Below are positions 11,591 to 31,631 of a DNA stretch of 64,000 nucleotides, piece by piece; position 1 is the first letter of the stretch; the number at the start of each line of letters is the position of its first letter. The DNA comes from Anaeromyxobacter diazotrophicus (lineage in GTDB: Bacteria > Myxococcota > Myxococcia > Myxococcales > Anaeromyxobacteraceae): positions 1-64,000 of the forward strand of contig NZ_BJTG01000012.1 in the NCBI RefSeq assembly GCF_013340205.1, given 5' to 3'. The position numbers and the translations under genes were made by a program. Below the pieces are notes generated by a model. That model was not told where the DNA came from and did not search any database. It was given only the letters and a program-made list of their open reading frames with translations.

Positions 11591-13204
<1,614 letters not shown>

Positions 13205-16201: not shown

Positions 16202-16535
16202 ACCCGCCTCCGCTGCTGCCTCGAGGATCGGACACATTGTGCGCCTTCGACCGGCGCCCGGCGCTGCGCGTCCGGGCCGCATCCCGAGCGGTCTCCCGGG
16301 CTCATCACCGGCGGCGTGGCCAACCGCACGCGCATGGGCTCGGCGCGCACCCGGCCCACGAGGCGAGCGCGCAGGCGCTCGTTGCACCGGCCGACCGTTC
16401 TTCGAGCAGCGGCCGAGGCGGGCGTGAGCTCATGGCACCAGGCAGAGAGCCGCTGGCTCACCTGGACCTCGAGCGCGCCCCGCGCCCGTGGCTCCTCGCG
16501 CTCGCGCGGCCGGTCCTCAGAGGCGCTGCGCGAGC
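16202..16535. other. 334-bp region upstream of groEL, no gene recognised
   Basis: This lies between the stop of the beta-propeller gene and the groEL start, both on minus. I saw no CIRCE inverted repeat (TTAGCACTC-N9-GAGTGCTAA) and no convincing -35/-10 pair. A short open frame at 16237-16539 on plus resembles no family. A 48-base stretch at 16469-16516 is about 85% identical by eye to 10980-11027 inside the ABC-F gene; it may be chance in GC-rich sequence or a duplicated scrap. Confidence 0.35.
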
Positions 16536-24418: not shown

Positions 24419-25015
24419 ATGCCGGTGCTGATGGCGATCGGTCCGTGGTGGGCATTCGTGGTGCGAGGAGTCGCGGCGGTCCTGTTCGGGGTTCTGACGT
24501 TCGTCGTGCCGGGGATGGCACTCCTGACGCTCGTCTTCCTTTTCGGTGCGTACGCCCTCGTCGAGGGAGCGTTCAACGTCGCGGGTGCCGTACGGACGGA
24601 CGCATCGCGCCGCCAGCCGCGCTGGGTGCTCCTCGTCGAGGGCATCGTCAGCATCCTCGCGGGGTTTCTCGCCTTCTTCGTTCCCGGGCTCACCGCGCTG
24701 TCGCTGCTCTACATCATCGCCGCGTGGTCGGTGGTGACGGGCGTCCTCGAGGTCGCGGCCGCGATTCGCCTGCGACGCCAGATCCGGGGGGAGTGGCTCA
24801 TGGCGCTGAGCGGCGCCCTCTCGATCGTGTTCGGGTTGCTCGTCGCGGTGTTCCCCGGCGCCGGCGCGCTCGCCGTCGTCTTCTGGATCGGAGCTTACGC
24901 GGTGGTCTTCGGAGGGCTCCTGATCGCGCTCGGGGTGAGGGTCCGCCACTTCACGCGCGCCGGGAAGAAGGCGGGCACCGGCTTCGGCGAGCTCGCGCCG
25001 AGCGCGAGTCATTGA
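24419..25015 (+). CDS. HdeD-family acid-resistance membrane protein
   Basis: 198 residues with six hydrophobic helices in three hairpin pairs, each containing a G-x-L-xF-VPG pattern: VLFGVLTFVVPGMALLTLVF, ILAGFLAFFVPGLTALSLLY, IVFGLLVAVFPGAGALAVVF. This threefold repeat is the DUF308/HdeD signature. HdeD proteins sit in the inner membrane and contribute to acid or heat tolerance in some bacteria. GGAGGGATGGGGG precedes the ATG. It is followed 33 bp later by the Clp N-domain gene. Confidence 0.9.
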   Translation: MPVLMAIGPWWAFVVRGVAAVLFGVLTFVVPGMALLTLVFLFGAYALVEGAFNVAGAVRTDASRRQPRWVLLVEGIVSILAGFLAFFVPGLTALSLLYIIAAWSVVTGVLEVAAAIRLRRQIRGEWLMALSGALSIVFGLLVAVFPGAGALAVVFWIGAYAVVFGGLLIALGVRVRHFTRAGKKAGTGFGELAPSASH

Positions 25016-25048: not shown

Positions 25049-25696
25049 ATGGCCGAGACTGCACGCGGGGACGTGGAAGGGCTGTGCGACATCTGTCACC
25101 GTCGGCCCGCCGCGGTACGAGTCGCCGTCTCCCAGAACGGACGCCGACAGACGCTCAAGGTCTGCGATGACGACTACGCGCGACTCCAGGCCCAGGCGCG
25201 GGGCTCCTCGCCGTTCGAGTCGCTCTTCGGCGGCAGCCTCTTCGGGGACGACGTCTTCGGAGACTTCTTCGGGGGCGACGGCGTCGAAGGGGGCGACGAG
25301 GCCGACGTCGACCGTGGCAGGGGGCGTGCGCGAACCCGCCCGCGCGGCAGGGCGGCCGACCGCGAGGCGGTCGACCTCGCCGACTACCTGAGCCAGCAAG
25401 GCGAGGAGATCCTCCAGCAGGCCGCGCGTACCGCCGTCGACTGGGGCGCGCGCGACGTCGACTCGGAGCACCTCCTCCACGTGCTCGCCGACAACGACGT
25501 GGTCCAGGCCGTCCTGGCGCGCTTCAAGCTCTCACCGCAGGATCTGAAGCGGCAGGTCGAGGAGCTGCGTCCGCGGCGCCAGGGGAAGGCCCCCGAGGGC
25601 CGCGAGCAGGTGGGCGTCTCTCCACGGGTCAAGGCGGCGCTCGAGGCGGCGTTCCGCGCCTCGCGCGACCTCGGCCATAGCTACGTGGCCGGGTGA
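25049..25696 (+). CDS. Truncated zinc-finger Clp ATPase (N-terminal part only)
   Basis: 215 residues. An N-terminal zinc-finger-like module has CDICHRRPAAVRV and KVCDDDYARLQAQ. It is followed by a Gly/Phe/Asp-rich linker (SPFESLFGG, FGDFFGG) and the double-helical Clp-N repeats (VDLADYLSQQGEEILQQAAR, VDSEHLLHVLADNDVVQAVL, GVSPRVKAALEAAFRASRDL). The frame stops right after GHSYVAG, where ClpC/ClpG/ClpK-type proteins read GHSYVGPEHLL and continue for over 600 residues with two AAA+ modules. No AAA+ sequence follows; the peroxiredoxin gene starts 61 bp later. It is either a decayed disaggregase or a free N-domain adaptor. Confidence 0.85.
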   Translation: MAETARGDVEGLCDICHRRPAAVRVAVSQNGRRQTLKVCDDDYARLQAQARGSSPFESLFGGSLFGDDVFGDFFGGDGVEGGDEADVDRGRGRARTRPRGRAADREAVDLADYLSQQGEEILQQAARTAVDWGARDVDSEHLLHVLADNDVVQAVLARFKLSPQDLKRQVEELRPRRQGKAPEGREQVGVSPRVKAALEAAFRASRDLGHSYVAG

Positions 25697-25756
25697 CGAG
25701 CAGCGGGCGGCGCCGGAGCAGCACGCACCGAAGACGTGAGAGGACGGGGGTCTACC

Positions 25757-26347
25757 ATGCCGGAAATCGAAGCGCGTCGAGAGCCATTGCCGTCGGGCAC
25801 TGCCGCCCCACCCTTCCGCATGCTGGCCGCGGACGCGGCGGTCATGCCCCCCGGGAGCCGCTTCCCGCCCGAGGATTGGATGTCGCTCGACGACCAGCGG
25901 GGGTCGCCCGTCGTGCTCGTCTTCTACCCCGCCGACTTCACGCCCGTGTGCGGCGAGGAGCTCGCGATCTTCAACGAGGTCCTCCCGGAGCTCGAGCGCC
26001 ACGGGGCGAAGGTGTTCGGGATCTCCGTCGACTCGGCCTGGTGCCACCGTGCGTTCGCGCAGGACCGGCACCTCCGGTTCCCGCTGCTCGCCGACTTCCA
26101 CCCAAAGGGCGAGGTCTCCCGCCGCTACCGCTCCTATCGGGAGCAGGACGGGCTCGCCGAGCGATCGCTGTTCGTCCTCGATCGCGACGGCAAGGTGTTC
26201 TGGAGCTACGTGTCCCCGATCGACGTGAACCCGGGCGTCGACGGAGTCCTCGACGCGCTAGAGAGGCTCGACGACGAGCAGTCGGCGGACTCGAGCGACG
26301 CGCCATCCCGGTCCGGCGACACCGCGCACGGGGAGCCGCGGCCATGA
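25757..26347 (+). CDS. Peroxiredoxin (AhpC/TSA family)
   Basis: 196 residues. The peroxidatic cysteine is Cys65 in FYPADFTPVCGEEL (PxxxTxxC). A second cysteine (Cys96, DSAWCHRAF) could resolve it, as in 2-Cys enzymes; the strand VFGISVDSAW and LFVLDRDGKVFWSY are typical. It reduces hydrogen peroxide or alkyl hydroperoxides in the cytoplasm. ATG 25757 is chosen as the start of homology, with GAGGACGGG upstream. The stop overlaps the next start (ATGA), coupling it to the DsbA-like gene. Confidence 0.9.
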   Translation: MPEIEARREPLPSGTAAPPFRMLAADAAVMPPGSRFPPEDWMSLDDQRGSPVVLVFYPADFTPVCGEELAIFNEVLPELERHGAKVFGISVDSAWCHRAFAQDRHLRFPLLADFHPKGEVSRRYRSYREQDGLAERSLFVLDRDGKVFWSYVSPIDVNPGVDGVLDALERLDDEQSADSSDAPSRSGDTAHGEPRP

Positions 26348-26880
26348 CGCCCCTCCGGATCCGGATCGGCCCCGGCGATCACGCGGACGGCCCGCGCGAC
26401 GCGCCCATCCAGCTGCTGGAGTACGGTGACTACGAGTGCCCGTACTGCGGCCGCGCGTATGCAGAGGTGGAGGAGGTCCGGCGGGCGCTCGCGGGGCGGC
26501 TCCTCTTGGTGTACCGCCATTTCCCGCTCACGCAGGTCCACCCCCACGCGATGCTCGCGGCCGAGGCCGCCGAGGCCGCCGGGGCGCAGGGCCGCTTCTG
26601 GGAAATGCACGGCGTGCTGTTCCAGAACCAGCACGCGCTCGAGCCGCAGGACCTCGTCGCCTACGCCGACGCGATCGCGCTCGAGCCCGACCGGTTCACG
26701 GAGGACCTCGAGGAGCACCGGTTCGAGGGAAAGGTCCGCCGCGATTTCCTGAGCGGCGCCCGCACCGGGGTGAACGGCACGCCGACGTTCTTCGTGAACG
26801 GGCGCCGGCACGACGGCGTCTTCACCGCGGACGCGCTCATCGAGGCGCTCCAGGGCGGCGCGCCCGGGGCGGCGTACTAG
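26344..26880 (+). CDS. DsbA/thioredoxin-fold disulfide oxidoreductase
   Basis: 178 residues with a CxxC active site CPYC in EYGDYECPYCGRAY near 37, the helical insertion of DsbA/FrnE-like proteins (AEAAEAAGAQGRFWEMHGVL), and a cis-Pro loop GVNGTPTFFVNGRR near 145. There is no signal peptide, so it probably acts in the cytoplasm, perhaps in reducing the peroxiredoxin encoded immediately upstream with an ATGA overlap (inferred). The family includes NhaA-associated and stress-locus thiol oxidoreductases. Confidence 0.9.
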   Translation: MTPLRIRIGPGDHADGPRDAPIQLLEYGDYECPYCGRAYAEVEEVRRALAGRLLLVYRHFPLTQVHPHAMLAAEAAEAAGAQGRFWEMHGVLFQNQHALEPQDLVAYADAIALEPDRFTEDLEEHRFEGKVRRDFLSGARTGVNGTPTFFVNGRRHDGVFTADALIEALQGGAPGAAY

Positions 26881-27749: not shown

Positions 27750-27784
27750 GCCGGCGCGGGGCCGCTCCGGTGGCGCGCCGCATG

Positions 27785-28014
27785 CGCGCCGCGTAGGGCG
27801 GGCCGTAGACGCCGACGACCGAGATCGTGCCGCCCTTGCGTGTCCCGTGGACGCACCAGTTGAACGCGCTGGTCGAGCCGGCCTGCATCTTGCCGAAGAC
27901 GCCGAACGCGCGCTGAACAGGGCCGCCCGCCGCCTCGCAGCCGACCGCGTCGATCGAGCAGTCTGCGCCACGGTCGTCGGTGAGCCCCTTGATCGTCGTG
28001 ATGATCGGCGTGGC
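27785..28014 (-). pseudogene. Zinc alcohol dehydrogenase relic
   Basis: The minus strand reads an uninterrupted piece of the NAD-binding half of a zinc alcohol/formaldehyde-dehydrogenase-like protein: TPIITTIKGLTDDRGADCSI, then DAVGCEAAGGPVQRAFGVFG and FNWCVHGTRKGGTISVVGVY. It has neither the zinc-binding N-terminal half nor the C-terminus. The right edge abuts a recombinase fragment near 28015, so the truncation probably came from an insertion or deletion at this site. Confidence 0.7.
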
Positions 28015-28369
28015 GGCGAGGTTCCGCGCCGAGGAGGTGAAGCTGCTCGACGCTCGGCAGGCACTGGCCGAGGCAGCCGTGGCTGCGACGCCCGCCCTCC
28101 CCTCGCCGGCCTACTCGACTCGCGCCATGCTGTCGGTCATCGAGAACATCGCCACGGCGGCAACGGTGAAGCCCCATAAGGCCAGGGAGCTGCTGCGCGG
28201 CGTGGTGGACTCGATCCTGATGACCCCCACACCCGACGGATACGCGGTGCGCGTGGCCCTCAAGAACATCAGCCCCGCCGCCTGGGAGGGCGACGGGGCC
28301 GAGGACTACAAGACTGGTTGCGGGGGCGCGACCGTGACCTTCTCTGAGGCGTTCGTGGCGCGGGCCTGA
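28015..28369 (+). pseudogene. Serine recombinase C-terminal relic
   Basis: A plus-strand frame carries the coiled-coil tail and last beta strand of a large serine recombinase: FRAEEVKLLDARQALAEAA, VKPHKARELLRGVVDSILMT, TPDGYAVRVALKN. The resolvase and zinc-ribbon parts are absent. Layout matches the tail of the recombinase at 30657-31573, but the sequences are diverged. The frame runs across the 13-bp repeat at 28315-28327, just as the other recombinase tail runs into the tRNA copy. It is probably the last remnant of an older element. Confidence 0.6.
28315..28327. repeat. Left attachment-site repeat (copy of tRNA-fMet 3' end)
   Basis: TGGTTGCGGGGGC, identical to 31552-31564. Read on minus it is GCCCCCGCAACCA, the acceptor 3' strand plus CCA of the initiator tRNA. 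It lies inside the recombinase-relic frame, at the matching place to the other copy. Confidence 0.65.
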
Positions 28370-28380
28370 GAAGGGCTCCG

Positions 28381-28716
28381 TCAGCTCTTCGCGAGCGGCT
28401 CGAGGGCGGCGACGAGCCGCGGGATCTCCTCGACCGACGTCTTCCAGACGACGTCCTCGTCCACGTCCATGTAGTCGTGCACGACCTTGTGGCGCATCCC
28501 GACGATCCCGCCCCACGGGATCTCCGGATGCGCCTTCTGGTACTCGCGCGAGACGCGCCGCGCGGCCTCTCCGATGGTCTGCAGCAGGTGGGCGAGCGCG
28601 AGGCGGAGGTTCTCGTCCCGGTCGAAGTCCTCTCGCCGAACGCCGGCGGTCTTGGAGGCGACCTTGCGCGAGAGGTCGAGCATGTGCCCGACGTACACCT
28701 CGTCATCCCGCTGCAT
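28381..28716 (-). CDS. hepT: HepT-like HEPN toxin (DUF86)
   Basis: 111 residues, all helical. The HEPN RNase motif RX4HXY is intact in GMRHKVVHDYMDVDEDVVW near 75-85, with the usual LRLALAHLLQTIGEAARRVS helix before it. HepT toxins are ribonucleases neutralised by MntA, which AMPylates the conserved tyrosine. The start overlaps the mntA stop region by 14 bp, and the antitoxin gene is upstream, as usual. It is cargo of the tRNA-fMet element. Confidence 0.93.
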   Translation of the reverse strand: MQRDDEVYVGHMLDLSRKVASKTAGVRREDFDRDENLRLALAHLLQTIGEAARRVSREYQKAHPEIPWGGIVGMRHKVVHDYMDVDEDVVWKTSVEEIPRLVAALEPLAKS

Positions 28717-29008
28717 ACTGGACCTCGGCGCCGGCGAGCACGCGATCGCGGATGCGTTGGTTCAAGAATCGCTCGGTCACGAGGTCCACGGTGCGTCCGC
28801 CGAGGAGGCCCGAGAGCTCCCGTTCCATCTCGTGCAGCGCGATGAAGCCAGGAACGTGGTCCGGCTCGAACTCCACCAGGACGTCGACGTCGCTGTCCGG
28901 CCTGAAGTCCTGGCGCAGGACCGACCCGAACAAGGACAGCTTGCGGACGTGGTGGCGCCCGCAGAAGTCGGCCAGCGCTCCGCGGTCGATGGGGATCCTC
29001 GTCGCCAC
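28703..29008 (-). CDS. mntA: MntA-like nucleotidyltransferase antitoxin
   Basis: 101 residues of minimal nucleotidyltransferase fold. The catalytic motif GSX10DXD is perfect: GSVLRQDFRPDSDVDVLVEF near 28-45. The third carboxylate would be in TVDLVTERFL. Family members AMPylate the paired HepT toxin. Start is GTG 29008. It overlaps hepT by 14 bp, so the two are translationally coupled. Confidence 0.93.
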   Translation of the reverse strand: MATRIPIDRGALADFCGRHHVRKLSLFGSVLRQDFRPDSDVDVLVEFEPDHVPGFIALHEMERELSGLLGGRTVDLVTERFLNQRIRDRVLAGAEVQYAAG

Positions 29009-30209: not shown

Positions 30210-30590
30210 TCATGACCTTGTTCTCGACGGTTCACGCCTGGCGTCCGTATCGCCCTCTGCCAGGTGATCCATCAGCGCCACGATCCGCGCTCGCAGGTCC
30301 CGCTTGAACTCTCGAACGCGCTCGTAGTCCGCCGGAAGCTGCGGGACCTCCGCGATCCGCTCGCCCGCCTCGACCTTCTTCTGGAGCACCTTGAACGCCT
30401 TCTCGAGATCGAGGTCGTAGTTGAAGAAGCGGCGCAGCTCATGGAGAGGAACCGTGATCGAGGGTTCCGGGGTCGCGAGCAACTTCCGCGCCCGCGAGAT
30501 CGCGGAGGCCGTCCGCGGGCGGTCGCTCGTGCGGCGCTCCGAGGCGGTCGCGCGCTTCGACCGCGCGATCGCGTCGAGGAAGTGTGCCAT
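30210..30590 (-). CDS. Hypothetical protein, probably N-terminally truncated
   Basis: 126 residues from ATG 30590, which has a very good GGAGGAGGCG site in front. However, protein-like sequence continues upstream in the same frame (AAQLPELAASGRFHLFLPEE) to about 30657, where the recombinase fragment begins on the other strand. The C-terminal half (RRFFNYDLDLEKAFKVLQKK, VPQLPADYERVREFKRDLRA) is charged and helical. I recognise no family. It either is a short gene or is the stump of a longer one cut at the junction. Confidence 0.5.
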   Translation of the reverse strand: MAHFLDAIARSKRATASERRTSDRPRTASAISRARKLLATPEPSITVPLHELRRFFNYDLDLEKAFKVLQKKVEAGERIAEVPQLPADYERVREFKRDLRARIVALMDHLAEGDTDARREPSRTRS

Positions 30591-31500
30591 CGCCTCCTCC
30601 GGCAAGAACAGGTGAAACCGCCCGGAGGCGGCCAGCTCGGGGAGCTGGGCTGCGAATACCTTTCGTCTGGAACCGCCGGAAGTGGGTCCGCTCGGCGCGC
30701 ACCGGGAAGCGCGTCCACCGCCTTCGGCCGCCCGAGGAGCACGTCGCGCTGCGAATCCCGGAGCTCGCGATCGTCTCCGAGGCGCTGTGGGCTCGCGTCC
30801 AGGCGCGGGTCTCGGCGACTCGCAAGGCGGGAGGACGTCCCCCTGGCTCGGGCAAGCACCCGCTCCTCCTCTCGGGACTGCTTCGCTGCGGCACATGCGG
30901 CGCGAGCATGGTCGTCATCGGCGCCAGGGTGAAAGACGGTCGACGCTACCCGGCCTACGGCTGCGCCGCTCATCACTCCAAGGGCTCGTCGATCTGCAAC
31001 AACGCGCTGACGATCTCCGAGGGCAAGCTTTCGCGCGCGATCTTCGCCGCGCTGCACGAGCTTCTCGCCTCCCACGACTTCCGGCAGCGGTTCGCTGACC
31101 GGTTCGCCCAGCGCGTCGCTGCGCACAAGCCCGCAGCAGACGAGGAGCGCGCCCGGCTCGAGGCCGAAGTTGGAACGCAGGAAGCTCGACTTCGTCGCGT
31201 GACCGAGGCGTTCGCCACGGTTGGCCAGTCCGAGGCGCTCGTGGCACAGCTTCGCCGGGAGGAGGAGAGGCTTCGCGAGCTCCGGAGCCGCCTCGCGGCC
31301 TCCAAGGCGAGCACGAAGCCCGCCGCCTCGGCCGTCACCGTGAGCCTGGAGAAGCTCGCGAAGTACCTCCGGCATGTCGAGAAGCTCGCCGAGGAGGCTC
31401 CCCAGAGCGCCAGGGCGGCCCTCGCCCGCGTGCTCGCTCCAGTGGTGCTCCACGCCGTCGAGAAGGACGGGAAGCGCTCCTACGAGGCCCGCGGAGCCCT

Positions 31501-31540
31501 GAAAATCGAAGACCCGGTCTCCCTCTCGGGCGACCGGGTC
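31501..31540 (-). terminator. Rho-independent terminator-like hairpin downstream of tRNA-fMet
   Basis: GACCCGGTC (31511-31519) and GACCGGGTC (31532-31540) form a perfect 9-bp stem with a 12-nt loop. Read on minus, the stem is followed by TTCGATTTTC (31510 to 31501), a T-rich tract. It starts 12 bp after the tRNA 3' end. It also lies inside the last codons of the recombinase fragment. Confidence 0.7.
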
Positions 31541-31550
31541 CTAGAAAAGG

Positions 31551-31631
<81 letters not shown>

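Follow-up and report, generated by a model that had tools for sequence, protein, structure and literature searches.

A short clpG reading frame in Anaeromyxobacter diazotrophicus is very probably the remnant of a 3'-deleted gene

An open reading frame that begins like a protein disaggregase and stops before any ATPase module raises the question of whether it is the debris of a motor protein or a targeting domain that has been set free. Such an ORF, of 215 codons, lies at 25049..25696 on the forward strand of the window analyzed here, the first 64,000 nucleotides of contig NZ_BJTG01000012.1 from Anaeromyxobacter diazotrophicus (genome G000, 4.83 Mb in 17 contigs, rated 100% complete). The first-pass annotation described a zinc-finger Clp protein with both Clp-N repeats intact, cut exactly before the AAA+ modules, and offered two explanations, namely, a decayed disaggregase and a domesticated free N-domain.

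The ORF has an ATG start and a TGA stop directly after GHSYVAG, as annotated, and its 215 codons are open and coding-like, with a GC3 of 0.89. It aligned with the NCBIfam ClpG and ClpK models (NF033607 and NF033606) from near model residue 1 to positions 188 and 209, with E values of 2.3e-49 and 1e-41 and scores of 168 and 143 bits, respectively; the curated cut-off for a whole ClpG/ClpK protein, 1900 bits, was not reached. The ORF is thus the N-terminal part of a ClpG/ClpK-type disaggregase, laid out as a zinc-binding N1 domain, a linker, Clp_N repeat 1, and the first helix of repeat 2. The zinc finger and the linker are present as the annotation had it: residues C13, C16, C39, and D42 are identical to those of full-length homologues, the hydrophobic strand is conserved in the same alignment, the linker is acidic and Gly-containing, and residues 12 to 51 match PDB 8p66, whose chain is annotated as ClpC/ClpK. 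By contrast, the N2 domain is incomplete. Pfam (PF02861) recognized a single Clp_N repeat at residues 129 to 174 (E 3e-8) rather than the two-repeat domain, and an alignment with full-length homologues showed that GHSYVAG closes the first helix of repeat 2. Past this point, the homologues go on with EHLLVGLAEEEEG..., and their first AAA+ module starts (LDKYSRD) approximately 55 residues further on. Because the stop falls inside repeat 2, approximately 55 residues ahead of AAA+1, neither the intact repeats nor the exact cut of the first-pass annotation holds. Solved ClpC N-domain chains matched the ORF only up to approximately residue 104 of approximately 145 to 150. In an AlphaFold2 model from a three-row alignment, the zinc domain alone was fairly confident (10-residue block means of 74 to 86 over residues 11 to 50), and values elsewhere were mostly below 50; three rows give too little depth for a verdict on the truncated N2.

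The nearest orthologues are full-length ClpG proteins of 935 and 934 amino acid residues in a genome of the same family (G009) and one of the same order (G053), with about 70% (71%) and 65% identity over the stretch covered by the ORF, respectively. In both genomes, a gene for an HdeD-like membrane protein (DUF308) lies directly upstream of clpG, as in the window (24419..25015, forward strand). The blastn homology to these loci spans HdeD and clpG and ends at window position 25692, which places a deletion junction at 25687..25696 on the forward strand, with the stop codon at 25694 to 25696. That the homology to full-length orthologues breaks off cleanly, within a shared gene order, supports the decayed disaggregase of the first-pass annotation. 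The 60-nt spacer that follows (25697..25756, forward strand) contains no recognizable clpG or AAA+ sequence. A candidate ClpG C-terminal tail in its +1 frame (GDEQRAAPEQHAPKT, then a stop) was rejected, as it matched the tails of homologues no better than shuffled sequences did (0.21, 0.09, and 0.81 of the shuffles scored at least as high).

A search of the window with full-length ClpG by tblastn gave a single real match, covering residues 2 to 195. The M domain, the two AAA+ modules, and the C-terminal extension are absent downstream of the stop in all frames, from the rest of the window, and from the rest of the genome. Since none of the reading frames past the stop encodes AAA+ sequence, the ORF cannot be explained by a simple frameshift; on this point, the absence of AAA+ sequence reported by the first-pass annotation was upheld, and the downstream AAA+ region that it thought resequencing might reveal was not found. 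In the whole genome, tblastn retrieved the window fragment and three Clp loci (on contigs C8, C10, and C2) with 37 to 53% identity; there was no second ClpG and no AAA+ piece with more than 53% identity to ClpG. Translocation of the AAA+ part is ruled out by this search, which yielded only other Clp proteins; the part is missing from the assembly rather than moved. A mis-joined contig hiding an intact clpG would be conceivable in a draft of 17 contigs. However, the junction is internal to a contig of 93 kb, a mis-join would be expected to leave the AAA+ part elsewhere whereas the genome, rated complete, lacks it, and a simple frameshift is excluded; an assembly or sequencing artefact is therefore quite improbable.

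The first-pass annotation had counted the absence of the short form from other genomes, together with a lack of expression, against its own proposal, and no homologue of the same length was found in searches of the phylum, the class, and relatives. Among the 195 genomes of the phylum search, matches that reached the zinc finger were open frames of approximately 896 to 962 amino acid residues, with the sole exception of G132. This genome was rejected as a second case of the short form, since its copy is frameshifted and the AAA+ sequence goes on in another frame. The second genome from this genus, G001, gave no match. A relative was present in 1,322 of 72,556 plasmid records; where the listed records had a feature at the matching position, its annotation was in most cases ClpK or AAA family ATPase. 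Three halomonad loci (Salinicola and Billgrantia) also have a broken clpG: L004 and L006 have a frameshift plus a 3' loss after approximately residue 719, and L005 is interrupted by an in-frame TAG. The decay of clpG is not confined to the A. diazotrophicus genome.

Downstream of the spacer, a peroxiredoxin gene (AhpC/TSA; 25757..26347) and a DsbA-like thioredoxin gene (26344..26880) form a pair on the forward strand, the peroxiredoxin starting 60 nt past the stop. The pair is also conserved in five further Myxococcota, where the approximately 7 to 9 kb read on either side contained no clpG. A peroxiredoxin is thus ruled out as a usual ClpG neighbor, and the pair is not the missing continuation of the ORF. 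In G009, an incomplete DsbA-like sequence lies approximately 5 kb downstream of the intact clpG (locus L061, reverse-strand coordinates 16268 to 16527), which is consistent with an ancestral stretch that held clpG and DsbA and is possibly a remnant of that neighborhood. The shared strand, the close spacing of 60 nt, and the lack of a terminator-like site between the ORF and position 26000 would suit another reading, in which the ORF is kept not as a protein but only as a transcribed and translated leader, or operon head, for the pair. This reading, compatible with a deletion, is nevertheless unlikely, given that the pairs of other Myxococcota manage without such a leader and that no promoter evidence was found.

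The surroundings also contain other gene fragments. From approximately 24 to 31.5 kb, the GC content is 66 to 73%, compared with 73 to 81% in most flanking kilobases. This low-GC region ends at a tRNA-Met gene (31552-31628, reverse strand), which marks an island boundary because homology to several family members begins exactly there. A recombinase-like ORF (30584-31573, forward strand) runs into the 3' end of the tRNA gene; the sole Pfam matches in it were a zinc ribbon and, weakly, a recombinase domain, with no resolvase domain recognized. Another gene remnant, similar to the C-terminal part of zinc-dependent alcohol dehydrogenases, lies at approximately 27770 to 28110 on the reverse strand (weak Pfam match, E 6e-4). 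The same island holds a HepT-like ribonuclease and MNT nucleotidyltransferase pair (28381-29008, reverse strand), apparently an intact toxin-antitoxin module. The left boundary was sought but not located, and the tRNA end did not recur as a direct repeat on that side of the island. In a relative (G002, contig C9, locus L106), a 48-nt copy of one end of the same tRNA-Met occurs at 12158 to 12205, approximately 6.6 kb from the tRNA gene (18767 onward). This copy suggests that the tRNA-Met gene is a recurrent integration site. An acquired, eroding island is the natural reading of the low-GC region.

Taken together, the ORF is very probably a clpG pseudogene that has lost its 3' part. Approximately 2.2 kb (some 730 codons) would have been removed by recombination or deletion. 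Both AAA+ modules and the C-terminal extension would have gone with it, as would the greater part of the second Clp-N repeat, and the surviving 5' quarter would have been joined to DNA that lies shortly before the separate peroxiredoxin-DsbA pair. A relative-rate test gave 19 versus 10 changes with G053 as the outgroup and 12 versus 12 with Vreelandella; neither shows a significant acceleration, which fits a recent deletion and a retained function alike. The open frame, the coding-like codons, and the kept zinc ligands count against a pseudogene, but a recent truncation predicts the same. Recent decay is favored because the short form is absent from other genomes, and by the position of the cut and the neighborhood.

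Whether the fragment could still work was considered in light of P. aeruginosa ClpG, in which the N1 zinc domain (C6, C9, C31, and H34) binds aggregates and about four N1 domains are needed per hexamer (PMC10641755). A retained free N-domain might bind aggregates through its zinc domain and hand them to, or shield them from, another Clp, such as that encoded on C8; the open ORF, the conserved zinc ligands and hydrophobic strand, and the other Clp ATPases of the genome would agree with this. However, no second genome with the short form was found among those searched, the cut lies inside a folding unit, and the genome has no full-length ClpG as a partner. Moreover, isolated P. aeruginosa N1, in up to 20-fold excess, neither competed with ClpG nor inhibited disaggregation (PMC10641755). 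Lacking a motor or hexamerization domain and most of the second N2 repeat, a peptide made from the ORF could amount to no more than a zinc domain in monomeric form, followed by a tail that is in part unfolded; by analogy with the P. aeruginosa data, its binding to aggregates should be weak, and competition with a hexamer would not be expected. The domesticated N-domain of the first-pass annotation thus drew no positive evidence and is opposed by published data. A retained free N-domain is very improbable, and the specific case of N1 with a partial N2 working with the other Clp ATPases of the genome is extremely so. Since the other three quarters of clpG are deleted in this one genome, the ORF is most likely not a new stand-alone adaptor but a dead remnant in a stress-resistance island that is eroding, and any product is presumably non-functional. 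It should be labeled as a clpG fragment and not as a functional Clp protein. A working free N-domain, were there one, would be a natural separation of a targeting domain from its motor.

The conserved short form in independent genomes that would be expected of a stand-alone Clp N-domain adaptor was not encountered when the phylum, the class, and relatives were searched. With the ClpG/ClpK autonomous AAA+ disaggregases (PMC10641755, PMC6995612, PMC2976762), the remnant shares the zinc-binding N1, the linker, and the start of the Clp-N (N2) domain but has no AAA1, M domain, AAA2, or C-terminal extension, and its N2 is incomplete. The fourth zinc ligand is Asp in the remnant and its close full-length relatives, whereas it is His34 in P. 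aeruginosa ClpG. A nearby HdeD gene is common to these systems and is immediately upstream in the window, G009, and G053. The tLST/LHR module comprises sHsp20, ClpK/G, FtsH, YfdX, HdeD, Trx, KefB, and DegP; sHsp20, FtsH, YfdX, KefB, and DegP were not identified beside the remnant in the subset of neighboring ORFs scanned, which did include HdeD-like, clpG-derived, and thiol-redox genes. The tLST/LHR island likewise carries clpG/clpK and hdeD together with redox genes, moves by horizontal transfer, and has known truncated forms. The locus described here shows a ClpG-HdeD stress locus that reaches the Myxococcota and decays there.
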